In this document: piece after piece, positions 5,014 to 16,220 of the stretch
Position numbering within the stretch: the first letter of the stretch is position 1
Layout: each line of letters begins with the position of its first letter
Assembly (NCBI GenBank): GCA_024244665.1
Contig: JAAEOI010000084.1
Location: 1 to 16,220, forward strand
Length of the DNA stretch: 16,220 nucleotides
From: Bacteroidota bacterium
GTDB lineage: Bacteria > Bacteroidota > Bacteroidia > Bacteroidales > GCA-2748055
Direction of reading: 5' to 3'
Notes under the pieces: generated by a model
Told to the model about the DNA's origin: nothing
What the model saw: the letters and a program-made list of their open reading frames with translations, nothing else
Databases searched by the model: none
Position numbers and translations under genes: made by a program

Positions 5014-5040
5014 CTCAAAGGTGAATTACTCACTTTTGAG
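5014..5040. repeat. Inverted repeat at the 3' end of the β-helix stub gene
   Basis: Arms CTCAAA (5014-5019) and TTTGAG (5035-5040) enclose a second pair GTGA (5021-5024) and TCAC (5030-5033), with one mismatched pair (5020/5034) and a 5-nt loop. The stop codon of the 5030-5470 gene lies in it. No T-tract follows on the minus strand, so this is not a standard intrinsic terminator. GCTCAAA occurs again 30 bp away at 4983-4989 inside the shared upstream element, so the repeat may belong to the same regulatory region. Confidence 0.35.
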
Positions 5041-5470
5041 AAAGCACCTTCAGAGTCATTTTTCTGTTTGTTCCTCCGGAAGCATCCATTACGTCCAATG
5101 TTGGTTTAATGGCTTTGAAAAGGTTTTTGGGATCTTCTTTCCATAGTGACGAGAGGACTTGGTCGAGCCCGGTGATTACCACCCTGTCCTTCTTGCTTAA
5201 GGGTTGAAATACAATGGGATTTGACTTTGTTCCGGAGAACGCCGGAGTGATCGTCTCAGAATAGATGCCGCCTGCAATGAGACACACATCACCAGGTTTC
5301 ATTATATCGGCCGCTTCCTGGATTGTCCTGAAGGGGGAACTCTTGCTACCATTGCCTGAACGGGCAGTACTGCCATCCACAAAATATTCTGTAGCGAAGC
5401 TTATTTTTACACAGAATAATAGAATTAAGATGATTGTGGTTTTATTACATTCCATTTTCAATAGCTTCAT
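5030..5470 (-). CDS. Truncated N-terminal stub of a secreted β-helix protein
   Basis: This encodes 146 residues. The first part is a signal peptide (best start probably M6, MECNKTT, at 5455; M1 at 5470 is the longest option). It is followed by EYFVDGSTARSGNG, SSPFRTIQEAADIMKPGDV and IAGGIYSETITPAFSGTKSNPI. This is the classic first turn of DUF1565/PL6-like parallel β-helix proteins: a 'distance-to-sheet' start, the 'ASP..GDxxxxxGGxY' pattern, then 'ITPAxSGTxxNPI'. Family members usually run to 450-900 residues, but this one stops soon after VVITGLDQVLSSLW, and the last 25 or so residues (from IKPTLDV) do not look like β-helix coils. The start overlaps the end of the upstream gene by 26 nt (11 nt for the shorter start), so translation may be coupled. 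It is probably a remnant with no enzymatic activity, although an expressed short protein cannot be excluded. Confidence 0.65.
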   Translation of the reverse strand: MKLLKMECNKTTIILILLFCVKISFATEYFVDGSTARSGNGSKSSPFRTIQEAADIMKPGDVCLIAGGIYSETITPAFSGTKSNPIVFQPLSKKDRVVITGLDQVLSSLWKEDPKNLFKAIKPTLDVMDASGGTNRKMTLKVLSQK

Positions 5471-6494
5471 TAAGCTCTAATAATTGTTTAAACTGTGGAA
5501 GAGCGAATCCATTGTCAACTCGCGCAACAGCCCATGTATACATTCCGCCTGCCTTTATAACCCGGTTTGTCCAGTCAATAGCCTGATCTGTTGGGAAACC
5601 TGCCTCCCCACGTCTCCAATGCCCCTGGATTGGTATAAAAATGGCTCCAAGGGCTGTTCCTTCACTATCATCCGGTGAGCCGTCCAGTCCAAGCCATGGC
5701 CCGGCTTCAATATTTTTAATCAAATCTATATTTTCGTGTCCGACTCCATTATCCCAGGGAACCTGTTCGTTCATCGTCCAGGGGTGACCTGCGGTATAAT
5801 CACAATATCTATCGGACTGGATGACCGGAGATCCAACTTTCTTATGCATTGTAAGCATTGCATTCGGATTCCCGGCACGAAGAGCGGTGGCAATGCGCAA
5901 TCTATCTATATCTGTATAATTGGCGCCAACACGATCAACCCACCAGCCGTCAATTTTCTCGCCGAACTTCGTTGAATAATATTCCAGTATTTTGATCACA
6001 CCTTCTTTATGCGATAAACCCGCAGATGCAAGGTAGTCATTCCATGTGTTCATTTGATCTGCAGTAAGATACCCTCTATCCATTCCGGTACTACTGAAAA
6101 AGACGAGCACTTTTAAACCTCTGGATTTTAAGGAATCCAGCAGCTCACCAAAAAAGTCACGCTCTGGAAACAGATCACTTCCCATGATGGCTTCCATCTC
6201 TGGATAGGGGGAGGAATACCAGCTGGATTGATGTCCCCGGGAAATATTGATCATGACATGGTTAATGGTAGTTAACTGGTCGATTTGAGACAGAAAGAAA
6301 TTCAGGTCAAAGTTTTCAGCATTCACTTTAGCGTTCGGCGTTTTGCTTTTATCATACGCCGTTGGGTGAAGAATACGAACCCCCCAGGTTCCGCAAAATG
6401 ATTCTGCACGAGCGTGTCGGGCTTCCTGCTGAGCATTGGCGCTTATGCCCAAAGCCATAAGCAATATCAAAAATGCAATTTTTTGTTTTTTCAT
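5445..6494 (-). CDS. Secreted TIM-barrel glycosidase-like protein, uncharacterised, GH29-like features
   Basis: The 349-residue product has a signal peptide (KKQKIAFLILLMALGISANAQ) and one domain of about 325 residues. Alternating strand and helix segments, for example NHVMINISRGHQS (78-90), LFPERDFFGELLDSLKSRGLKVLVFFSS (108-135) and FGEKIDGWWVDRVG (177-190), are typical of a (β/α)8 barrel. In IDGWWVDRVG, D187 is placed like the nucleophile of GH29 ('xxWxD'), but the family identity is uncertain. Near the C-terminus GPWLGLDGSP, IPIQGHWRRGE and VIKAGGMYTWAVARVDNG resemble the segment after the nucleophile in fucosidase-like enzymes. It is in the second cluster, between the chimeric genes and the β-helix stub, whose start it overlaps. 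A remnant of a related gene lies on the other strand at 199-400. It acts in the periplasm or at the surface; its substrate is unknown. Confidence 0.65.
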   Translation of the reverse strand: MKKQKIAFLILLMALGISANAQQEARHARAESFCGTWGVRILHPTAYDKSKTPNAKVNAENFDLNFFLSQIDQLTTINHVMINISRGHQSSWYSSPYPEMEAIMGSDLFPERDFFGELLDSLKSRGLKVLVFFSSTGMDRGYLTADQMNTWNDYLASAGLSHKEGVIKILEYYSTKFGEKIDGWWVDRVGANYTDIDRLRIATALRAGNPNAMLTMHKKVGSPVIQSDRYCDYTAGHPWTMNEQVPWDNGVGHENIDLIKNIEAGPWLGLDGSPDDSEGTALGAIFIPIQGHWRRGEAGFPTDQAIDWTNRVIKAGGMYTWAVARVDNGFALPQFKQLLELNEAIENGM

Positions 6495-6506
6495 ATGACC
6501 AAGACT

Positions 6507-6770
6507 TTAGCTTACTTCTTTATTATTTTCAAATTGATTGTCCTCAATCCAGCACGGTTTACCCCGGGGGTCCACATATGCTTCTTCCGAGAGGGCAAAG
6601 GTTTTTGGCTTATCAGAATCATTGTAAAAGAGCTGAATGAAATTCTCAGGAGCGGCAGACTCATCGATTTGAACCGGTGAATCAAGTTTGCCACTTGCAT
6701 ATTCGCGGGCTTCGTTCCACTGCGCCGCAGAATTAAACCAGGTATCAGAGTGAGTTCCACGGGTGGAATG
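6507..6770 (-). pseudogene. C-terminal tail fragment of a β-helix protein
   Basis: In the frame ending at 6507, from about 6770, the sequence encodes SDTWFNSAAQWNEAREYASGK, then FIQLFYNDSDKPKTFALSEEAYVDPRGKP. This matches the last domain of the complete β-helix protein at 8164-10248 (FERWYASAAEWVEARTYASG, then FYNDSDKPKTFALSEEAYVDPRGKP). The domain is a β-sandwich that ends many Bacteroidota polysaccharide-active β-helix proteins. The match stops right after RGKP. The complete protein continues VSGSVTVAPWRSVVLFKKQ, but here CWIEDNQFENNKEVS follows, so the last strands are missing. There is no start codon of its own. The only upstream frame is that of the GHL15-GH29 gene, from which this piece is out of frame. 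It appears to be a decayed fragment left by deletion. Confidence 0.7.
6559..6623. repeat. 65-bp perfect repeat, copy A
   Basis: Positions 6559-6623 are identical to 8228-8292, starting TTACCCCGGGGG and ending TATCAGAATCATT. It covers the NDSDKPKTFALSEEAYVDPRGK segment of the β-helix tail domain. Beyond 6623 the two copies fall to roughly 70% identity by eye, and before 6559 they share nothing. Confidence 0.9.
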
Positions 6771-8148
6771 AGTCATACCTATCGAAGTTGCCGTGATGGC
6801 TACCCACCGGCATAATGAAACAGGCACCGTTTTCTTTAAAGAATTTCACCAAAGCATCGGGATCCCATTTCTCTGCTTTCCAGAGATCGATGCGCTCGTG
6901 GGCAGTAAGCCCTTCCGGGCGGTTTTCAACAGAACCAGGTCCCCAATGCGACCAAATTCCAATCTTGCCATCAGCAAACCATTCCGGCACTTCGTAGTTT
7001 GTTGCCATTGACTCCCAGTTGGGCTCGATTTTTTTCGAGGGGCTTGATCCGCCACTGTTCAGGGGTTTAAAAGCATGCAGTTCAATCTTAGCTTCTTTCT
7101 TTTCGAGATCTACGGTCACTGTCATGTTTTCAAACTCGCGGGAGTATACCCACCCTTTTCGAACAGCACTGCCCAGGGCTTTGCCCGGTGCCAGATCATA
7201 CAAGGGATAATCATCGAACATCCCCTGGGTTTTATTATAGCCGGAGTTATAAATGTAATAGCTGTCAGGTCCGTAAAAGAGTAAAAACGAGGCATAACTA
7301 AAGAGAAAGGGTTCCCGGGTACCTGGCAACACAGATCTCGGGCTACCTCTGGGTATGATCATCTTACCTTTTTTTTGTGCCTTAATAAGGTTGTCAAAAA
7401 GGAATGCTGCTTCTTCCTTGGTATCAAGAGGTTTATGAAAGAAAAACTCAATGAATACTCCTGAAGTGTGATCAACAAAATCCTGCCCCCCCTGCAGGAC
7501 GGTCGAATCAACCCGGAAGCCGTTATAAATGACTATTTTATCTTCACCGATCTTTGCACGTACCTTATCAATCAATTTGAACAGGCTTTCATATTGCTCC
7601 TTCGGAACCTTTGGAGAAGCATCCAGGAATACACCATCCAGCTCACCTCTTAGAACCGGATCGACAATGGCATTCACCCACCACTCCTGTACCTCAGGAT
7701 TATTCAGGTCATACATGGGGACCGGATTTGCTTTTGCGTGCTGAAATACCCAGTCACGGTATTTCCATTCAGGATGTTTATTGAATTCCGTTTGAGACTC
7801 ATAGAAGTTCCAGTTAAGAACGATATTCCAGTACATCAGAACTTTAATGTCCGGGTTTATCTTTTTTAGCTTAAGCGCTGTTCCGATGGTTGCTGCTTCT
7901 GTATTAGGTTTTGGTCCGTAGTCGGCCCAGGCATGTCTTTTTTCGACAGTGAAAATAGAATAGTTCTTTGCGATATACTCATACTCCTCAGGTGTGAAAT
8001 CGTGGGGCTCGCTGAAGCCATGACCATACCTTTGAATCCGATTCTCTGAATGAGCTTGTTCCTGGGCTGATACACCTGTCCCAATGATCACAAAAAGGGC
8101 CACTAATACCCATATAGAAGATTTCGCTTTCATGATAGTCAAAGTCAT
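6745..8148 (-). CDS. GHL15-type putative glycoside hydrolase fused to a truncated GH29 domain
   Basis: The 467-residue product has a signal peptide (best start M6, MKAKSS, at 8133, or M1 at 8148) ending near VSAQ. Residues 40-355 are a barrel-like domain matching the family called hypothetical glycosyl hydrolase 15 (GHL15): RHAWADYGPKPNTEAATIGT (71-90), KVLMYWNIVLNWNFYE (102-117), FNKHPEWKYRDW (122-133), GELDGVFLDASPK (168-180) and HTSGVFIEFFFHK (227-239). D176 or E234 could be catalytic, an inference from position. A Ser/Gly/Pro linker (365-372) leads to a GH29 start: WESMATNYEVPEWF (378-391), KIGIWSHWG (395-403), SHHGNFDRYDSFHPWN (450-465). Compared with the intact GH29 at 361-1899, about 40 residues are missing between ENRP and DLWKAE. 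All sequence after FHPWN, including the nucleophile aspartate, is also lost. The GHL15 part may work; the GH29 part cannot. It starts 15 nt after the β-helix gene stop. Confidence 0.75.
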   Translation of the reverse strand: MTLTIMKAKSSIWVLVALFVIIGTGVSAQEQAHSENRIQRYGHGFSEPHDFTPEEYEYIAKNYSIFTVEKRHAWADYGPKPNTEAATIGTALKLKKINPDIKVLMYWNIVLNWNFYESQTEFNKHPEWKYRDWVFQHAKANPVPMYDLNNPEVQEWWVNAIVDPVLRGELDGVFLDASPKVPKEQYESLFKLIDKVRAKIGEDKIVIYNGFRVDSTVLQGGQDFVDHTSGVFIEFFFHKPLDTKEEAAFLFDNLIKAQKKGKMIIPRGSPRSVLPGTREPFLFSYASFLLFYGPDSYYIYNSGYNKTQGMFDDYPLYDLAPGKALGSAVRKGWVYSREFENMTVTVDLEKKEAKIELHAFKPLNSGGSSPSKKIEPNWESMATNYEVPEWFADGKIGIWSHWGPGSVENRPEGLTAHERIDLWKAEKWDPDALVKFFKENGACFIMPVGSHHGNFDRYDSFHPWNSL

Positions 8149-8163
8149 TAATATATAAGGGTT

Positions 8164-10248
8164 CTATTGCTTTTTAAACAGTACGACTGATCGCCAGGGG
8201 GCGACGGTAACAGATCCTGACACCGGCTTACCCCGGGGGTCCACATATGCTTCTTCCGAGAGGGCAAAGGTTTTTGGCTTATCAGAATCATTATAGAAGA
8301 GCCGGATGAAGTCATCCGGGGCGGTGGATTCATCTGCCATTACCGGTGCATCAAGATTGCCGCTTGCGTAAGTGCGCGCCTCCACCCATTCAGCCGCTGA
8401 GGCATACCAGCGCTCGAAGGCAGGCCGGCCCGGGTTACAGTTCTGATGGAGCTCATAAATGACCTTTGATCCCTTATAGGGCATGGCACATACATTATTG
8501 GTGAACAGCCCCTGGTTTTCCACATCACATTGCTCGGTCTCTTTTAGTGAGAAGCATGTCATAGCCCCATAATTGGCTATTGAATTTGCAGCATCCGTAC
8601 AGACAATGATGTTCTCTTCGAAGCGGTTCCCGGACATGGATGGGGGAGAGGCCTCACCTGGCTCCCGGTCATAAGGATCCCGATCCAGGGTAGTAATGCC
8701 TGCGCCTCTGACCAGCAGGGTGTTGCCCAGGAAGAGGTTGTCATTGGAATTAAAATTGATATGGATCCCCCGGTCGGGTCCCCTGTTGACCTGGGGAAAG
8801 GAGATGGTATTGTTGCGGATAACAAGATTCAGGGTTCCCCTGTCACACTGAATGCCCGTGGTGAAAGGTACTTCCATGTCGGCAATGATATCGCCCAGTC
8901 CAACCGTGTTGGGTATCCCATTCAGAATGATGTTTTCCTCAACCACGCTGCCCAGCTGATCATCATGGGTATAGATGGCTCCCCCATCAAATGCCACCAG
9001 GTTAAAACGGTCAATGACGTTTCGATTTATCTGGTTCCCTCCTTTTAAGTGCTGGATGCCCAGGTAGCCAATATTTCTTAACCTGTTATAGCTTGCTTCC
9101 GAATTTCCCCCCATCAGGTATATCCCATTCCTGCCAGAGCCCCGACCGGCAATCAGACCGATGTTTGAGATATTGTTTCTGGTGACTACAACACGGCCTT
9201 TCCCGTTGGTGCGGATGCCGGCACTGAAGCAATCGCTGATCTCGTTGCTGTTAATCAATGCAGAACTGGCCTCCACACGGATGCCCATCTGTCCACACAA
9301 GCTTACTTCACAATCACGCACCGTAGCAAGCTGACTGCTTTCAATACTGATCCCTGTTGAAACAGCCATTTCAATCTTCAATCCTTCCAGGGTGACGGAG
9401 CTGGAATTTTTGATGTTCACCACAGCCGGACTGAGGGAATAGCGGTAGTTTTTAATATTTGGATTTTCATGGGAGCAGAGATATAGTATTCGCTTTTCCT
9501 TATGATAAAACCATTCCCCGTCCATATCCAGGGTATTCAGATGTTTCTGAAAGAAATATCCGGCCTCCTGCAGGTTCTCATCTCCCTTTTTTGCCGTGGG
9601 CTTCTGATCATTGAGGATGTTTACGACAGTCCCCTCCACTGAGATGACCGGGTAGGGATCATACCTCCAGACATTCTTGCGCAGGATAAGCTCTGCACCG
9701 GCCAGCCCCTCTGCACCGTTCAACTCCGGGTCGAATAGCTTTGTAAATGTCCGGCTGCTGAAAGTATAAAAGGCATCGTTCGTCAGTATATCCCCGTTGG
9801 GAGTACGGCCCAGTGGGAGGGAGGTGCTTCCGCGCATCAGCAGGGCCACATCCGTCACATCCTCGGGCAAAGGCTGTTGATACACATTGCTCCGTCCTGC
9901 CACCGGTGACCAGGCCCCCGTCAGGGTCCTGGCCCCTGAGAGAATGGGTCGTTCACCCTCTCCAAATGCTCCGATTCGGATGTTGGACCCCTTTATCTCG
10001 ATCATCCCTTCGAAGCGTTCGCCCCGTCGGAAGAGAATACATGCGCCCTCCGGGAGGGCCAACTGTTGATTTACCCTGTCCAGTGTAAGCCAGGGCCCCG
10101 AAACACCATCGGTGTATTCAGCCGATTTACCATCCCATGCATCGTTGCCGTCACTGGATACATAGTAGTCAACTGCATCTGCATTGAGCCACCCTGAAAA
10201 CAGAAGAACAAGAGCAAACGCGCAGGGCATTAAAATCTGTCTGATCAT
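8164..10248 (-). CDS. Secreted right-handed parallel β-helix protein with C-terminal β-sandwich
   Basis: The 694-residue product has a signal peptide (cleavage near residue 25, NADA) and no lipobox. A β-helix begins at YYVSSDGNDAWDGKSAEY (28-45), followed by LPEGACILFRRGERFEG, SNIRIGAFGEGERPILSGA and a Trp-containing turn. Many coil repeats follow, such as VTLEGLKIEMAVSTGISIES, ALINSNEISDCFSAGIRTN and VVVTRNNISNIGL. From residue 608 on is a β-sandwich tail (RWYASAAEWVEARTYASG to VTVAPWRSVVLFKK). The fold is shared by polysaccharide lyases and some glycosidases (GH28, GH141 and others), and I cannot assign a reaction. It is the first gene after the susCD terminator and lies downstream of the second copy of the shared element (10309-10335). 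Its length and domain order look complete. Parts of it are repeated as fragments at 6507-6770 and 15808-16220. Confidence 0.8.
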   Translation of the reverse strand: MIRQILMPCAFALVLLFSGWLNADAVDYYVSSDGNDAWDGKSAEYTDGVSGPWLTLDRVNQQLALPEGACILFRRGERFEGMIEIKGSNIRIGAFGEGERPILSGARTLTGAWSPVAGRSNVYQQPLPEDVTDVALLMRGSTSLPLGRTPNGDILTNDAFYTFSSRTFTKLFDPELNGAEGLAGAELILRKNVWRYDPYPVISVEGTVVNILNDQKPTAKKGDENLQEAGYFFQKHLNTLDMDGEWFYHKEKRILYLCSHENPNIKNYRYSLSPAVVNIKNSSSVTLEGLKIEMAVSTGISIESSQLATVRDCEVSLCGQMGIRVEASSALINSNEISDCFSAGIRTNGKGRVVVTRNNISNIGLIAGRGSGRNGIYLMGGNSEASYNRLRNIGYLGIQHLKGGNQINRNVIDRFNLVAFDGGAIYTHDDQLGSVVEENIILNGIPNTVGLGDIIADMEVPFTTGIQCDRGTLNLVIRNNTISFPQVNRGPDRGIHINFNSNDNLFLGNTLLVRGAGITTLDRDPYDREPGEASPPSMSGNRFEENIIVCTDAANSIANYGAMTCFSLKETEQCDVENQGLFTNNVCAMPYKGSKVIYELHQNCNPGRPAFERWYASAAEWVEARTYASGNLDAPVMADESTAPDDFIRLFYNDSDKPKTFALSEEAYVDPRGKPVSGSVTVAPWRSVVLFKKQ
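8228..8292. repeat. 65-bp perfect repeat, copy B
   Basis: This is identical to 6559-6623 and lies inside the tail domain of the complete β-helix gene. The intact copy continues to the gene's natural end, while the other copy ends at a joint, so this one is the likelier source. Confidence 0.9.
9525..9643. repeat. 119-bp perfect repeat, copy A (in intact gene)
   Basis: Positions 9525-9643 are identical to 15995-16113. In protein it covers part of the β-helix segment VVNILNDQKPTAKKG and QEAGYFFQKHLNTL. Outside the block the two genes differ at roughly one base in four or five. Confidence 0.9.
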
Positions 10249-10308
10249 ATTTGAGTGTTTGTTGGTTTAGCCTTGAATAGATAAAATTATTCAATAGTCA
10301 GCCAGTGT

Positions 10309-10335
10309 AATTGCTCAAATACCTCATTTACTTGT
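10309..10335 (-). promoter_or_regulatory. Shared upstream element, copy 2
   Basis: This is the counterpart of 4979-5005, with 22 of 27 positions identical. The 3' half TTTGAGCAATT and the 5' half ACAAGT are fully conserved. It lies 61 nt upstream of the β-helix gene start and about 105 nt past the susD terminator, so it is well placed to start the second transcript. Its TATTTG only partly resembles the Bacteroidota -7 box. Confidence 0.45.
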
Positions 10336-10438
10336 CAGAATCTACGATCTGGGTTCAGTAGCAAGACCGGCCATAAATCTGTAACACCTTTTCAGGACTA
10401 GTCTGATAGATTGCTTCATTATCATTATCGAGAGAACG

Positions 10439-10470
10439 AAAAAAAAGCGCGTGAAGTTCTCACGCGCTTT
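10439..10470 (-). terminator. Intrinsic terminator after susD
   Basis: A perfect 11-bp stem, AAAGCGCGTGA (10444-10454) and TCACGCGCTTT (10460-10470), encloses a 5-nt loop. On the minus strand it is followed by a run of eight T (10446-10439, partly in the stem). It lies 64 nt past the susD stop codon and ends or attenuates the susCD transcript before the β-helix cluster. Confidence 0.9.
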
Positions 10471-10506
10471 ACACCTAATCTAACCTAACCTAAACATCCA
10501 TGAGAC

Positions 10507-10525
10507 ACCATATTTGTAATATGGT
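10507..10525. repeat. Hairpin just past the susD stop codon
   Basis: The arms ACCATATT (10507-10514) and AATATGGT (10518-10525) pair perfectly around a 3-nt loop, 9 nt downstream of the susD stop. No T-tract follows. It may stabilise the 3' end or act as a partial pause site with the terminator further down. Confidence 0.5.
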
Positions 10526-10533
10526 TCGGTTTC

Positions 10534-12258
10534 TTAGTACCCCGGATTTTGATCCAAAAGAGGATTTTTATTTATTTCGCTCTGTGGAATGGGCATGTAA
10601 TATAATTTCTCATCATAAATCCTTTCCTGCAGTAAGGAATAAGTATAGGTCTTAACTTCAGGATCCACCGTACGATCGGTATATACGTCCACCTTCTCGA
10701 CATTAACAAATGTCTGGTCAAGAATCATCCAGCGACGAACGTCAAAGAAACGGTGGTCTTCAAATGCCAACTCTATCCGCTTCTCATGCATTATATCATC
10801 CATGGTAAGTACTGCGAGCAGTGATTCATCGGGCATTTGGGCACGCTGGCGGATAGGTAAGACATACTCGCGGGCCCCGGCTCCATCTCCCAGCATTACC
10901 AGACACTCGGCATAGTGAAGATAAAACTCGGTCAAACGCATAAAGGGACAAAATGCTACCGTACCTTTCTGAAATTTGGATGTATGATCATCCCTCACAT
11001 GTTTATGACAATAATAGCCGGTGCGTGTGAAGTTCTTTGTTTCCTGCAGAACACCACCCTGCCGGTCGTATCCCGGGCGTGTTATTGTATCTCCATTTGA
11101 ATCAAATTCATGATATACACCTGACTCGACTTTATATCCAATCAAATCACCAGAGGGGACACGGGCCATGGTTTCACTGAAATGAGCCCCATCGTAAAGT
11201 ATGGTTTCATAAAAACGCAATTCCCTGTTAGAATATGGATCTTGCCCCATGGTAGTCCTGTCGAATTCAGTCCCGTCAGCCATCTGAAAAGCATCCACCA
11301 GACCTTGGATAGGTGTGGCAAGGCCCCAACCTCCCCAACTGGGAATACCAAAAAGAGTTGAAGAATAATTAAAGAAATGAACCAGGTTTTCGGTATTCAT
11401 ATATTTAGCCATGATTACCTCCGTATTTCCCATGCTTGGTGTATTATACCATACATCGTGGTAAGCTATGTCAGAACCTGGCATGCCATATAAGCTATAC
11501 TGAGGAAGATCAATAACTGCTTTACAGGCATTAGCAGCCAGGGTCCACCTGTTCATATCGTTATTCGGGTTATGCAATGGACTGGCATGATGAAGCAATA
11601 CCTGTGCTTTCACTCCCAATGCAGCTCCAGAGGTAATACGACCGGGCGTTGCCGTTTCAGGTAAATCAGGAATAGCCAGCTCTAATTCAGCTAAAATAAA
11701 AGCAACACAGTCATCATAGCTTGCGCGTACCTGGTCAACAGGATCGTCAGGAGAAAATAAGTTATCAGCGATAATGACTCCACCATAACATTTAATCAAC
11801 TGATTATGGTACCAGGCTCTTAAAAAGTGCATCTCTGCTAACCAGACATCGAGTTTACTTTGCTCTACGTCAAACCTCCCTTGCTCATAGTTGTCAAAGA
11901 ATACATTTATATGTTGAAGAATAGGGTAGAAATTTTTCCAGCCTCCGATATATTCCTGGGTATCCGGATTCAGTCTGTTATTGGTTATATCCTGACCTCC
12001 GCCCCATACGATATGAGGATAGGCTTCATCGGTGGCTTCTCCCCTGAAATGTCCCCAGGTCATTGGCCTTGGCGTACCGATTCTGGTAGTTTGATATCCA
12101 CCCAGCATGAGATAGGCACGATCAACGTAGCCCTGAATTGTATTTTCACTGGCCCAGAATACGCCATCAGAAAGACTGTCCTGTGGTTCTAAATCAAGAA
12201 CATCCTGGCATGAACCCAGGGTCAGGGCTGCTAAGAAAATTATATATATCTTTTTCAT
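10534..12258 (-). CDS. susD: SusD/RagB-like outer-membrane glycan-binding lipoprotein
   Basis: The 574-residue product has a lipoprotein signal with lipobox LGSC (lipidated C17) and the family N-terminus DVLDLEPQDSLSDGVFW. The α-helical core includes LAEMHFLRAWYHNQLIKCYGG, a TPR-like segment typical of the family. The C-terminus has FEDHRFFDVRRW, followed by YYMPIPQSEINKNPLLDQNPGY, the classical SusD/RagB end. SusD proteins sit on the cell surface over the SusC barrel and bind the glycan for import. The gene starts 12 nt after the susC stop, so the two are one operon. It is followed by a hairpin and a strong terminator. The glycan bound cannot be told from the sequence; neighbouring fucosidases suggest a fucosylated one. 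Confidence 0.97.
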   Translation of the reverse strand: MKKIYIIFLAALTLGSCQDVLDLEPQDSLSDGVFWASENTIQGYVDRAYLMLGGYQTTRIGTPRPMTWGHFRGEATDEAYPHIVWGGGQDITNNRLNPDTQEYIGGWKNFYPILQHINVFFDNYEQGRFDVEQSKLDVWLAEMHFLRAWYHNQLIKCYGGVIIADNLFSPDDPVDQVRASYDDCVAFILAELELAIPDLPETATPGRITSGAALGVKAQVLLHHASPLHNPNNDMNRWTLAANACKAVIDLPQYSLYGMPGSDIAYHDVWYNTPSMGNTEVIMAKYMNTENLVHFFNYSSTLFGIPSWGGWGLATPIQGLVDAFQMADGTEFDRTTMGQDPYSNRELRFYETILYDGAHFSETMARVPSGDLIGYKVESGVYHEFDSNGDTITRPGYDRQGGVLQETKNFTRTGYYCHKHVRDDHTSKFQKGTVAFCPFMRLTEFYLHYAECLVMLGDGAGAREYVLPIRQRAQMPDESLLAVLTMDDIMHEKRIELAFEDHRFFDVRRWMILDQTFVNVEKVDVYTDRTVDPEVKTYTYSLLQERIYDEKLYYMPIPQSEINKNPLLDQNPGY

Positions 12259-12270
12259 GATTATAAGATT

Positions 12271-15200
12271 TTAAAAGTTAAGAGTTATACCGCCTGTTAT
12301 GGTTCGCAGGATTTCATAAGATCTCCAGCTATTGATTTCAACATCACGCGAGATCTCCATTCCGTCGAAACAGAACAGGTTTTCACCACTGACAAAAATT
12401 CTTAGTCCCTGAATATTCGCCTTTGTCAGAAGCGATTGTGGTAAGTTGTAACCCAGTTCAACAGTTTTTACCCTTACAAAGGCAGCACTTTCTAACCAGA
12501 AAGTGGAACGCCTGTCATTATTATGGCTTCCGATTTGGTTATCACCAAGGTAGCAATAGGTCTTAGGATATTTATTATCACCCTCTTGCTGCCACCTGCC
12601 TTCATGCCAAGCATTATCATACCTGAGCATTTCCGGCTGGACAAATTGCCAGGCACGTGCCTGGCCCTGCAAACGGACTACAAAATCAAAACCTTTATAA
12701 CTACCTCCCAGATTCAGTCCAAATACTATTTCAGGGGAACGTACTTTGTCGGTCCTGACCCTGTCCTGATCATCAATTACACCGTCTGCCTCATCATAGA
12801 TCCCATCTCCGTTGGTGTCAATGGTCAGCTGATCGATATATCTTATATCACCAGGCTGTGCTCCTGACAGGTGAGGATAGTTATCTATTTCGTCCTGGTT
12901 CTGGAAAAGACCATCGGCCTCAAATATTAACCTTGACAGATCACTTCTGTCATTTGTTACAAGTGCGTCAACAGAGTGTCCTTCTTTCTTCTGAAATTCA
13001 AGTACCCCCGCTGCTTCGTCCAGGTACTCAACGCGGTTGCGGGTGAAGGTGAATGTACCTGCAGCATAGTATGAGAAGTCAGAGCTTGCTCTTTTCTGAA
13101 TTGCCAGACTTCCATCAAATCCCCAGCTATTTACTCTACCCAGGTTCTCATCAGGAAGATCAATTCCATAATAACCGGGCACGGATGCAGTTCTGGGAAT
13201 CAATATGTTCGTTCTTTTGTTGTAGAAGTAGTCGCCTGTAAAATCTATTAATCCATTTGCAAACTGCATGTCAAGACCCACATCATAGGACTCCTGTTCT
13301 TCCCAGGTTATAGCATAGTTCGGGACCCCGTCTGAGGCGAACGAAGGTACTACCAGACCTGCATCTCCTAAAAATGTTTGCCACCATCTGTTGGTCTCCT
13401 GAGAATATGTTGAGAGGTACTGAAACGGGGAAGTGTTGTCAAGACCCATTCTTCCCCATGATCCTCTGATCTTCGCATAATTGATAAAAGCTATGTTATC
13501 AGCAAAGAAAGATTCTTCGGAAATACGCCAGGCGGCAGAAACTGCCGGGAAAGTGCCCCACTTTTTACCATCCGGAAATTTATAACTTCCATCAGAGCGC
13601 AAGGTAAAATCCAGCATATATCTGTCTTTAAAGCCATAGAAAAAACGTCCGAAGTAATGCAGGGCTGCTGTTTCACTCATAGAACCGCCATTTGCATCTG
13701 TTAATTCATCACCTGCATTTATTATTTCCAACAGATTGGTTAAATAATCCCCTCTTGATGCCGACAGGTTTTCGTTAAAGCCTTGCCTTACTTCCATGCC
13801 TGCAAAGACATCCAGCCTGTGATCACCAAAAGTCCTGCTATAATTTAATTTGGTATTAATCTGGCTGGAATGGTTATCACGGTAATTTTTTGTCAATCTG
13901 GGATACTGGGTAGTCCATCCACTTTGAGAGGGTATGTAATCGTCTAAAGTCGGATCGTACTTATAAGTATACCAGGTATTTAACCAGTTGCTTGTTTTCC
14001 CGCTGCCAACACCATATTTTGCAAAACCATCAAGCGAAAGTCCTTCTGTAATCCAATCCAGCTGATAATCGTAGCGGAGAATTCCTGTTAAACTGTTGTC
14101 ATAAACCTTATTATAACCCGCAACTGTTGAACCCAGTATGACCGGATTCAGACCATATTGCATGGTTCCAACCAATCCATTGTCATATCTGAAAATGGTT
14201 TCAGGAAGAGCCTGTTTCGCACGTAACCTGGTCGAAGTAGTATTCTGTTCCTGACTTCTATCCTGTACTCTGGCAGATAAGTCAAGAGATACTGTGAGCC
14301 TTTTAGTGGCCTGAAAATCCAGATTGGATCTAAGCTGGTATTGTTTATAGGAGACAGCAGGATCGCTATTATCTTCTTCATACATTTTGTATTGTCCATC
14401 CTGGCTCAGAAATTCACCGGAAACGAAAAATCTCACCTTTTCCGTACCACCATTAACTGTAAGAGCATGTCTCTGCTGCGGCGCCCAATTGCTAAATGTC
14501 TCATCATACCAGTCCACATCCTGACCTGCATGGGTCAGAGGAGATGATCCCGTCCTTAATTTTTCAAGGGCCACATCATCATAAATAGCCACACCACCTC
14601 CATTGATCTTCTCCTCGTTCATGGCAACAGCAGTCTCATATGAATTTTGCCAGTTTGGTTTTCTTGTAGGTTGGGAAAATGCGACTGTGCTGGTCAAAGA
14701 ATATACAGGTTTTCCTACATGACCACGCTTGGTAGTAACGAGAATTACACCATTTGAAGCGTTTACTCCATAAATGGCTGCAGAAGCATCTTTCAAAACA
14801 GATATATTCTCGATATCATTTGGATTAAGGCGTGCAAGAGTATTTACACTGGTTGGAACACCATCGAGAATCATCAACGGGGCATTGGAGCTTCCAAGGG
14901 TTGCTTTACCCCGCACTAATATATCCACATCCTCGGCACCCGGTCTGCCATCACCCTGAGTGATGACCAGCCCCGGAATCTGACCGGCCAGACCGGTGGA
15001 AATATTAGCAGCATGGCTCTTAAGCATCTCATCACCACTAAATGATGCGACTGATCCGGTGACAGTTGCCTTTGTCCGTGATCCGTATCCGATGACCACC
15101 ACCTGTTCGAGTTCGGTGAGGTCTTCAGACATGATGACGTTGAGAGTAGTTTGTCCGGAAACGGCGATTTCCTGGGAGATATACCCCACGTAAGAAATTA

Positions 15201-15405
15201 CCAGGATTGCGTTTTCAGCAACACCTGGAAGAGAAAAGTTGCCATTCGCATCAGCAATCGTCCCGTTCGTAGTGCCTTTTTCAGCAATAGATGCACCTAA
15301 AAGAGGCGCTCCCGATTGGTCGGTTATTTTTCCAGAAATGGTTTGCTCCTGGGCAAACACAGTCACTGTCATAACCATAAAAAAAATAGTTAGGATTCTT
15401 TTCAT
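12271..15405 (-). CDS. susC: SusC/RagA-like TonB-dependent outer-membrane transporter
   Basis: The 1044-residue product has a signal peptide ending near TVFA (18), then a carboxypeptidase-D regulatory-like domain (about 21-92: QTISGKITDQSGAPLLGAS, ISYVGYISQEI). Next comes a TonB-box-like segment LTELEQVVVIGYG (97-109). The plug domain carries PLMILDGVP (177-184) and LNPNDIENISVLKDASAAIYG (193-213), the signature of the SusC/RagA group, then NGVILVTTKRG. A β-barrel fills the rest and ends ITGGITLNF with a terminal Phe. An Asp-rich loop near residues 860-880 (IDTNGDGIYDEADGVID) may bind calcium, as seen in family members. With SusD it imports oligosaccharides, energised by TonB. There is no STN domain, so signalling to an anti-sigma factor through this protein is unlikely. 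The start follows a 260-nt upstream region with a palindrome. Confidence 0.97.
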   Translation of the reverse strand: MKRILTIFFMVMTVTVFAQEQTISGKITDQSGAPLLGASIAEKGTTNGTIADANGNFSLPGVAENAILVISYVGYISQEIAVSGQTTLNVIMSEDLTELEQVVVIGYGSRTKATVTGSVASFSGDEMLKSHAANISTGLAGQIPGLVITQGDGRPGAEDVDILVRGKATLGSSNAPLMILDGVPTSVNTLARLNPNDIENISVLKDASAAIYGVNASNGVILVTTKRGHVGKPVYSLTSTVAFSQPTRKPNWQNSYETAVAMNEEKINGGGVAIYDDVALEKLRTGSSPLTHAGQDVDWYDETFSNWAPQQRHALTVNGGTEKVRFFVSGEFLSQDGQYKMYEEDNSDPAVSYKQYQLRSNLDFQATKRLTVSLDLSARVQDRSQEQNTTSTRLRAKQALPETIFRYDNGLVGTMQYGLNPVILGSTVAGYNKVYDNSLTGILRYDYQLDWITEGLSLDGFAKYGVGSGKTSNWLNTWYTYKYDPTLDDYIPSQSGWTTQYPRLTKNYRDNHSSQINTKLNYSRTFGDHRLDVFAGMEVRQGFNENLSASRGDYLTNLLEIINAGDELTDANGGSMSETAALHYFGRFFYGFKDRYMLDFTLRSDGSYKFPDGKKWGTFPAVSAAWRISEESFFADNIAFINYAKIRGSWGRMGLDNTSPFQYLSTYSQETNRWWQTFLGDAGLVVPSFASDGVPNYAITWEEQESYDVGLDMQFANGLIDFTGDYFYNKRTNILIPRTASVPGYYGIDLPDENLGRVNSWGFDGSLAIQKRASSDFSYYAAGTFTFTRNRVEYLDEAAGVLEFQKKEGHSVDALVTNDRSDLSRLIFEADGLFQNQDEIDNYPHLSGAQPGDIRYIDQLTIDTNGDGIYDEADGVIDDQDRVRTDKVRSPEIVFGLNLGGSYKGFDFVVRLQGQARAWQFVQPEMLRYDNAWHEGRWQQEGDNKYPKTYCYLGDNQIGSHNNDRRSTFWLESAAFVRVKTVELGYNLPQSLLTKANIQGLRIFVSGENLFCFDGMEISRDVEINSWRSYEILRTITGGITLNF

Positions 15406-15643
15406 AAGTAGTTGGATTTGAGTTTAATTAGAATTGCATTCTTTTAGTCATCATTAAGTTTTGGGTTTTTATGTTATAGTTTGGAATTTGCATCCATCTC
15501 AAATATGTATTCTACAAAGTGACAGTGCATTGAATTCCAATGCATTAAACAACTCAATCGTATCCACGAATTCAGTGAAATACGACTACTAATCATTCTA
15601 ATAAGTAAAGTTCAGTTGTTTCATTGTAGGTGAAATGCTGTAT
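15406..15643. promoter_or_regulatory. Upstream region of susC with a palindrome
   Basis: This stretch has no convincing gene and is AT-rich. It contains the perfect inverted repeat TGCATTG-5-CAATGCA at 15526-15544 (about 120 nt upstream of the susC start), a candidate operator. A TATTTGAG (minus strand, 15505-15498) about 93 nt upstream matches the second half of the shared upstream element in its TATTTGAG part. An ACTAATCATTC at about 15589-15599 also occurs in element copy 1. I cannot place a reliable -33/-7 pair. Confidence 0.4.
15526..15544. repeat. 19-bp palindrome, candidate operator of susC
   Basis: The arms TGCATTG and CAATGCA (7 bp each, perfect) surround AATTC. It lies about 120 nt before the susC start and well outside any gene. 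Confidence 0.45.
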
Positions 15644-16220
15644 TTAGTCTTTTTCTTGCTGAATTCGGTCAATTACCATTGCACGAAGGCGCTCCCCCTG
15701 CCATGCTGGTATGAATCCGCTCTCATCTCGAATCGGAGCAAATATGCCAGGCCTTTCTTCGACACCATGGAGATGCCCCATCCGGGTATCTCGCCAAAGA
15801 GATTTCCGCTTTCAATTATTATCCCGCTTGAAACAGCCATTTCAATCCGCAATTCATCCAGGGTGACGGAATTGGAATTTTCGATATTCACCACTGCAGG
15901 GCTGACGGAATAGCGGTATTCATTAGGATTCGGGTTTTCTTCGGAGCAGAGATAGAGTATTTGCTTTTCCATAGGAAAAACCATTCCCCGTCCGTATCCA
16001 GGGTATTCAGATGTTTCTGAAAGAAATATCCGGCCTCCTGCAGGTTCTCATCTCCCTTTTTTGCCGTGGGCTTCTGATCATTGAGGATGTTTACGACAGT
16101 CCCCTCCACTGAGGTGCCCGGATAAGGGTCAGACCTCCAGACATTCTTTCGCAGGATAATCTCCGCCCCGGCTAGATCTTCCGCTCCGCTCACTCCGGGT
16201 CGGTAAGCCTTGTAAACGTC
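15644..16220 (-). pseudogene. Degraded internal piece of a β-helix gene with an unrelated 3' part
   Basis: From the right edge to 15808 the minus strand encodes a paralogue of the 8164-10248 protein (roughly its residues 175-304): SGAEDLAGAEIILRKNVW, DENLQEAGYFFQKHLNTLD, then EKQILYLCSEENPN and LRIEMAVSSGIIIES. Two 1-bp deletions relative to the intact copy break it. One is near 16192 (CACTCC where the intact gene has CAACTCC) and the other near 15975-15985 (WFF followed by a shift before MEKQ). Beyond ESGN, at about 15807, similarity ends. Another frame is then open down to TAA at 15646-15644 and encodes MGHLHGVEERPGIFAPIRD and IPAWQGERLRAMVIDRIQ, which looks like the end of a different, unrecognised protein. 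The gene starts beyond the right edge. The perfect 119-bp repeat (15995-16113) lies in it. Confidence 0.7.
15995..16113. repeat. 119-bp perfect repeat, copy B (in pseudogene)
   Basis: This is identical to 9525-9643 although it lies in a frameshifted gene piece; see that entry for the diverged flanks. Confidence 0.9.

Follow-up and report, generated by a model that had tools for sequence, protein, structure and literature searches.

The locus studied here raises the question of how an intact β-helix gene came to share a perfectly identical block with a broken paralogue, when the DNA on both sides of the block has diverged. The window, that is the whole stretch of 16,220 nucleotides that was analysed, carries on its minus strand the genes of a polysaccharide-utilisation locus. 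A susC gene (12271..15405; TIGR04056, 828 bits, over the cut-off) and a susD gene (10534..12258; PF07980, 190.7 bits) are followed by an intact right-handed β-helix gene (8164..10248). The 694-residue product of the latter, P0001, matches Pfam families PF13229 (60.2 bits) and PF05048 (32.3 bits), both over the cut-off. Next to it lies a gene (6745..8148) that consists of a GHL15 and a GH29 part according to Pfam. Further genes of the locus on the same strand encode an α-L-fucosidase and a second β-helix protein with a GH141-domain match below the cut-off. The best relative of the SusC protein is 82% identical; relatives from Allomuricauda and Mangrovibacterium reach 64% and 52%, which makes a marine member of the Bacteroidota the probable host.

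The intact β-helix gene is flanked by two partial copies, both on the minus strand. The upstream remnant (15808..16220) can be aligned to about residues 165–307 of P0001; at one end the window cuts it off, and at the other, near 15800, it gives way to unrelated sequence. The downstream remnant (6552..6758), delimited by tblastn with residues 610–678 of P0024 and by a comparison of pieces, consists of about the last 70 residues, minus the final 20 or so. The GH29 part of the fusion gene ends near 6748, where it is joined to this remnant.

Of 7,992 candidates that were scored, 46 were related to P0001 at E ≤ 0.001, and the family alignment was made with P0001 and 31 of them (32 sequences). Compared with solved structures, the family profile found its best match in 9rx2, annotated as "Parallel beta-helix repeat protein", with an E-value of 1.2e-6. 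Two types were distinguished, with labels of our own, by the stretch at about residues 214–231: the A-type comprises P0006–P0012 and similar proteins, including P0001, the B-type consists of seven proteins with the motif PRGI, and the remaining ones are intermediate. The upstream remnant is A-type, whereas the downstream remnant is B-type outside a tract described below. In each of the A/B pairs P0006/P0032, P0009/P0033 and P0017/P0023 the longest contigs are of the same length, so that the two proteins probably share a contig. One member of the family, P0021, is a β-helix fused to a sulfatase.

The sequence-only reading had reported a perfect block of 119 bp between the intact gene and the upstream remnant, and 9525–9643 (about residues 202–242) is indeed identical to 15995–16113, both on the minus strand, at 119 of 119 positions. 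susC and susD lie between the two copies. The local alignment of 9337–9751 with 15808–16220 spans 415 columns, with no difference in the block and 55 differences in the 296 columns outside. The divergence of the flanks, put at 20–25% by the same reading, is slightly less: 17% on the low-coordinate side (32/188) and 21% on the high-coordinate side (23/108). The edges were also said to be sharp. This holds for the high-coordinate edge, where 6 of the first 20 columns differ, but the low edge is softer (2/20): a mismatch at 9524 is followed by 17 matches, then by a deletion and more differences, so that a tract of 137 bp containing a single change is another way to read it. The frameshifts reported on either side of the block were found as a one-base deletion on each side in the upstream remnant. 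The deletion on the 5' side of the gene lies about 29 bases before the window ends, a position at which assemblies are least reliable; this copy is broken regardless of that deletion, because its homology stops near 15808. Tract statistics were obtained by permutation, following the same idea as GENECONV. None of 200,000 shuffles of the differences reached a run of 119 bp, the longest being 100.

The window contains four direct exact repeats of at least 20 bp, of 119, 65, 21 and 20 bp, while dinucleotide shuffling of the whole window, repeated 120 times, never gave an exact repeat longer than 16 bp. The 65-bp repeat, absent from the earlier reading, involves the same intact gene with a different remnant as partner. 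It lies at 8228..8292 in the intact gene (residues 653–674) and at 6559..6623 in the downstream remnant, both on the minus strand. Differences amount to 0/65 inside and 26/95 in the flank columns, and a single one of 200,000 shuffles reached such a run. The low side offers only 14 alignable flank columns, and that edge is poorly defined; the tract is only about 7–12 bp from the end of the homology of the downstream remnant. Both repeats are sharply bounded identical tracts with diverged paralogous flanks, though the 119-bp tract ends less abruptly on its low-coordinate side. Near the 65-bp tract, the match of P0010, which is 86% identical to the intact protein, ends at residue 651 (8296), 4 bases from the tract edge; the two positions may mark a common break site or lie close together by chance.

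Silent positions are unchanged in both tracts. Third codon positions differ at 0/40 inside the 119-bp tract against 28/99 outside (Fisher p 3e-5), and at 0/21 inside the 65-bp tract against 14/29 outside (Fisher p 9e-5). When third positions only were shuffled, the observed run was reached 0 times per 100,000 for the 119-bp tract and 126 times for the 65-bp tract. At fourfold sites, the changes are 0/17 against 15/43 and, for the 65-bp tract, 0/11 against 4/16, a contrast that is weak on its own. These figures bear on the idea that the blocks have been kept since duplication by purifying selection on a protein, RNA or DNA function, which the sequence-only reading had named as an outcome that would speak against copying. 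In the six closest A-type relatives, residues 203–241 are well conserved (0.90–0.97), with 0.81–0.92 in the 5' flank and 0.63–0.76 on the 3' side, so that the contrast to the 3' side of the 119-bp tract is partly due to protein conservation. The 5' flank is also well conserved in these relatives, yet the upstream remnant differs there by 21%. Over the 32-sequence family the blocks are not specially conserved: the 119-bp window ranks 529/654, partly because B-type proteins lack five residues there, and the 65-bp window ranks 505/671. Moreover, the two tracts differ in sequence, the second copy of each lies in a broken gene, and the whole window gave no match to Rfam at the gathering threshold or in a tRNA scan. 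Purifying selection by itself cannot account for the unchanged silent sites, and as an explanation of the tracts it is hardly credible. A diversity-generating retroelement was also considered and rejected, as the repeats are identical rather than differing at adenines and no reverse transcriptase family was found in the nine ORFs scanned.

Kinship was then compared inside and outside the tracts, each piece of the remnants being matched separately, at the protein level, with 34 family members. Outside the 65-bp tract, the downstream remnant is closest to P0024 (82%), P0027 (80%) and P0032 (78%), and P0001 comes only 21st of 34, with 58%. Inside the tract P0001 is the sole identical protein of the 34, the next one reaching 82%. 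From the sequences, this reads as a clean change of kinship, from another subfamily to the intact product. The picture is less clear-cut for the upstream remnant. On one side of the 119-bp block P0001 ranks 6th of 34 with 71% (best 79%), on the other it ranks first with 73% (next 70%), and within the block it is at 100% with P0009 and P0010 at 97%. This remnant is A-type throughout, and the case for the 119-bp tract rests mainly on nucleotide identity. At the protein level, the intact paralogue is therefore closer inside the tract only, clearly for the 65-bp tract and partially for the 119-bp tract. Mosaics at the protein level are rare elsewhere in the family: in 5 of 441 windows, one of the seven B-type proteins was closer to one of seven A-type proteins than to the other six of its own type. 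The only clear mosaic is the N-terminus of the B-type protein P0032, aligned to residues 25–64 of P0001, which is A-like (identity 0.88 with P0001, 0.85 with P0006 and at best 0.72 with any other B-type protein). Judging by these identities, it is possibly a conversion tract in a related organism.

Taken with the exact tract, the diverged flanks, the silent sites and the second tract, these comparisons support the gene conversion proposed by the sequence-only reading. We consider it likely that both tracts are conversion tracts, produced by ectopic, non-reciprocal homologous recombination. A broken or gapped copy would have invaded another copy of the gene within the same cell and used it as a template for repair; about 120 bp in one case and about 65 bp in the other would have been copied, and the ends would have rejoined their own locus without crossover. 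The pathway would be of the RecA type, and a crossover is presumed to be absent. The conversion would be recent, with 0 changes in 184 bp and a 95% upper limit of 1.6% divergence. It is well supported statistically, and strengthened by the occurrence of the second tract in a remnant of another subfamily.

One point against conversion is the divergence of the flanks, 17–27%. In the transformation of B. subtilis, the mean integrated length is 130–340 bp at about 15% divergence, whereas at about 17–23% exchange is rare, with a mean integration of 3–4 bp, according to the excerpt of PMC6382021. By analogy, the tract lengths resemble the 15% case while the flanks are beyond it, so that either a locally more similar stretch at the start or a setting other than transformation must be assumed. 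A related mechanism deserves mention here, in which homologous and illegitimate repair act jointly: a piece of DNA, from the cell itself or taken up, would pair at one homologous end and be joined at the other with little or no homology. The position of the 65-bp tract, so near the truncation of the downstream remnant, fits such a homologous end with an illegitimate join, and the locus has other deletion joins, such as that of GH29 to the β-helix near 6748. Homology-facilitated illegitimate recombination is described in bacteria, for incoming DNA as far as the excerpts of PMC3240628 and PMC6382021 go. For the 119-bp tract no illegitimate end is needed, since both of its flanks are homologous. 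In a variant of this explanation, the tracts would be imports from a related strain, and the evidence fits a donor in a sister strain as well as one within the cell. Joint repair or import is improbable as the origin of the two tracts. Under conversion, breaks repaired from any similar template would be expected to yield both deletion joins and tracts.

The main risk to the conversion reading is the assembly. Read correction or simplification of the assembly graph could have overwritten one copy that was merely similar with the version of the other. Exact tracts are a typical product of assembler simplification, the window appears to resemble a metagenome contig, and the upstream remnant extends to the end of the window. 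An assembler merges a stretch only if the copies match exactly over a long distance at either end of it, and they would have needed far more likeness there than flanks of 17–27% divergence offer. The same would have had to happen twice, each time with another partner and with every copy retaining its own flanks, and the outcome would still mean a tract of raised identity. An artefact of this kind is judged unlikely, although it carries more weight than the other alternatives.

If the tracts are conversion tracts, the direction of copying is of interest. For the 119-bp tract, kinship is uninformative as to donor and recipient. For the 65-bp tract, the sequences weakly suggest copying from the intact gene to the downstream remnant. 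The mean identity of the tract is 0.67 to six A-type relatives and 0.64 to seven B-type relatives. Over this stretch, all seven B-type proteins lean towards their own type by at least 0.05, five of the six A-type proteins lean towards theirs by 0.02–0.08, and the remaining A-type protein leans towards the B-type by 0.05. P0001 leans towards the A-type by 0.02, so that the letters of the tract are A-like and the downstream remnant looks like the recipient. P0001 and P0006 are identical at 0.89 just upstream but only at 0.59 inside the 65-bp tract. Of 465 pairs, this one ranks third by the size of the drop; similar drops also occur in other, unrelated pairs. This drop fits poorly with a simple copy from the intact gene to the remnant, unless the stretch is merely variable. 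Divergence of P0001 from P0006 exactly in the tract is compatible with copying from the remnant to the gene.

Copying towards the gene would recall systems in which silent cassettes diversify an expressed protein, of which pilE is one type. The flanking partial copies would then be silent donors from which short parts of the exported β-helix protein are rewritten. In the Borrelia vlsE system, likewise, an intact gene lies beside partial silent copies with common short tracts, but there are 15 cassettes there and two remnants here, as given in the excerpt of PMC9159922. Repeats like those of vlsE, bordering a variable region, were not found here, and there is no evidence for the intact gene as recipient. 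Cassette-type diversification in this locus is thus very doubtful. A closer likeness is the ectopic conversion between tufA and tufB of Salmonella, which likewise leaves a continuous identical tract with differences outside; the excerpt of PMC5485169 gives 12 differences in 1185 nt between the copies and a conversion that fits a walk of about 1000 nt. Here, by contrast, the flanks are 17–27% diverged, the tracts are 119 and 65 bp long, and each pair includes a broken partner. The event seems to be a clear further instance of a known process, not a new kind of system. Literature searches, on gene conversion and polysaccharide utilization loci in Bacteroid- (judged by title) and on intragenomic gene conversion of Bacteroidetes paralogs (judged by title and start of abstract), returned nothing on topic.

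If conversion is real, copying took place between intact and broken copies at 17–27% divergence, a range in which DNA should pair inefficiently, and trees of such protein families of carbohydrate loci may be patchwork at a scale of 50–150 bp. From geometry only, an unequal exchange at the 119-bp copies would delete 6,470 bp including susC and susD, and one at the 65-bp copies would delete 1,669 bp with the GHL15-GH29 gene. DNA of a related locus was not found in plasmids (near mode), phages (by protein), viral contigs queried with P0001, the alignment A1 and 5445–6494, or genome contigs queried with A1 and SusC; these scans for relatives rely on a few exact peptide patterns and can miss some. 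The plasmid protein search returned only distant SusC proteins (169 records, all below 60%) and one weak match to 5445–6494.

In that case, fusion, truncation and patching occur together in this locus of an uncultured organism, probably of the Bacteroidota, and its best reading is a decaying polysaccharide-utilisation locus. At the join near 6748, the sequence GGAAC fits both GH29 and the β-helix, the parent sequence of the latter being deduced from the remnant. The GHL15-GH29 fusion itself is also found in P0172 (77% identity over 98%), and in other proteins GHL15 is fused with GH43 (P0177) or with other N-terminal parts (P0176, P0182). At 5030–5470, only 146 residues are left of a β-helix gene that weakly matches pectate lyase and DUF1565. 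Upstream of susC (15406–16220), plasmids and phages gave no match; beside the upstream remnant, a minus-strand frame at 15650–15807 gives 53 protein-like residues before a stop, without a match in Pfam or plasmids, and from its sequence this frame is perhaps the end of another cut gene. A GH43-like gene at 1916–2529, recognised by its matches to P0177, is in pieces. Compared with P0177, it has lost about 90 internal residues and changes frame near a run of seven C (about 2134–2140), which could be a sequencing error. The 21-bp exact repeat (1662–1682 and 1983–2003) lies in the α-L-fucosidase gene and in this GH43-like remnant, in different frames. Its copy in the remnant corresponds to WKNVRPEC, against WKDGKPEY in P0177; the repeat may be a third templated patch of very small size, or a chance match.
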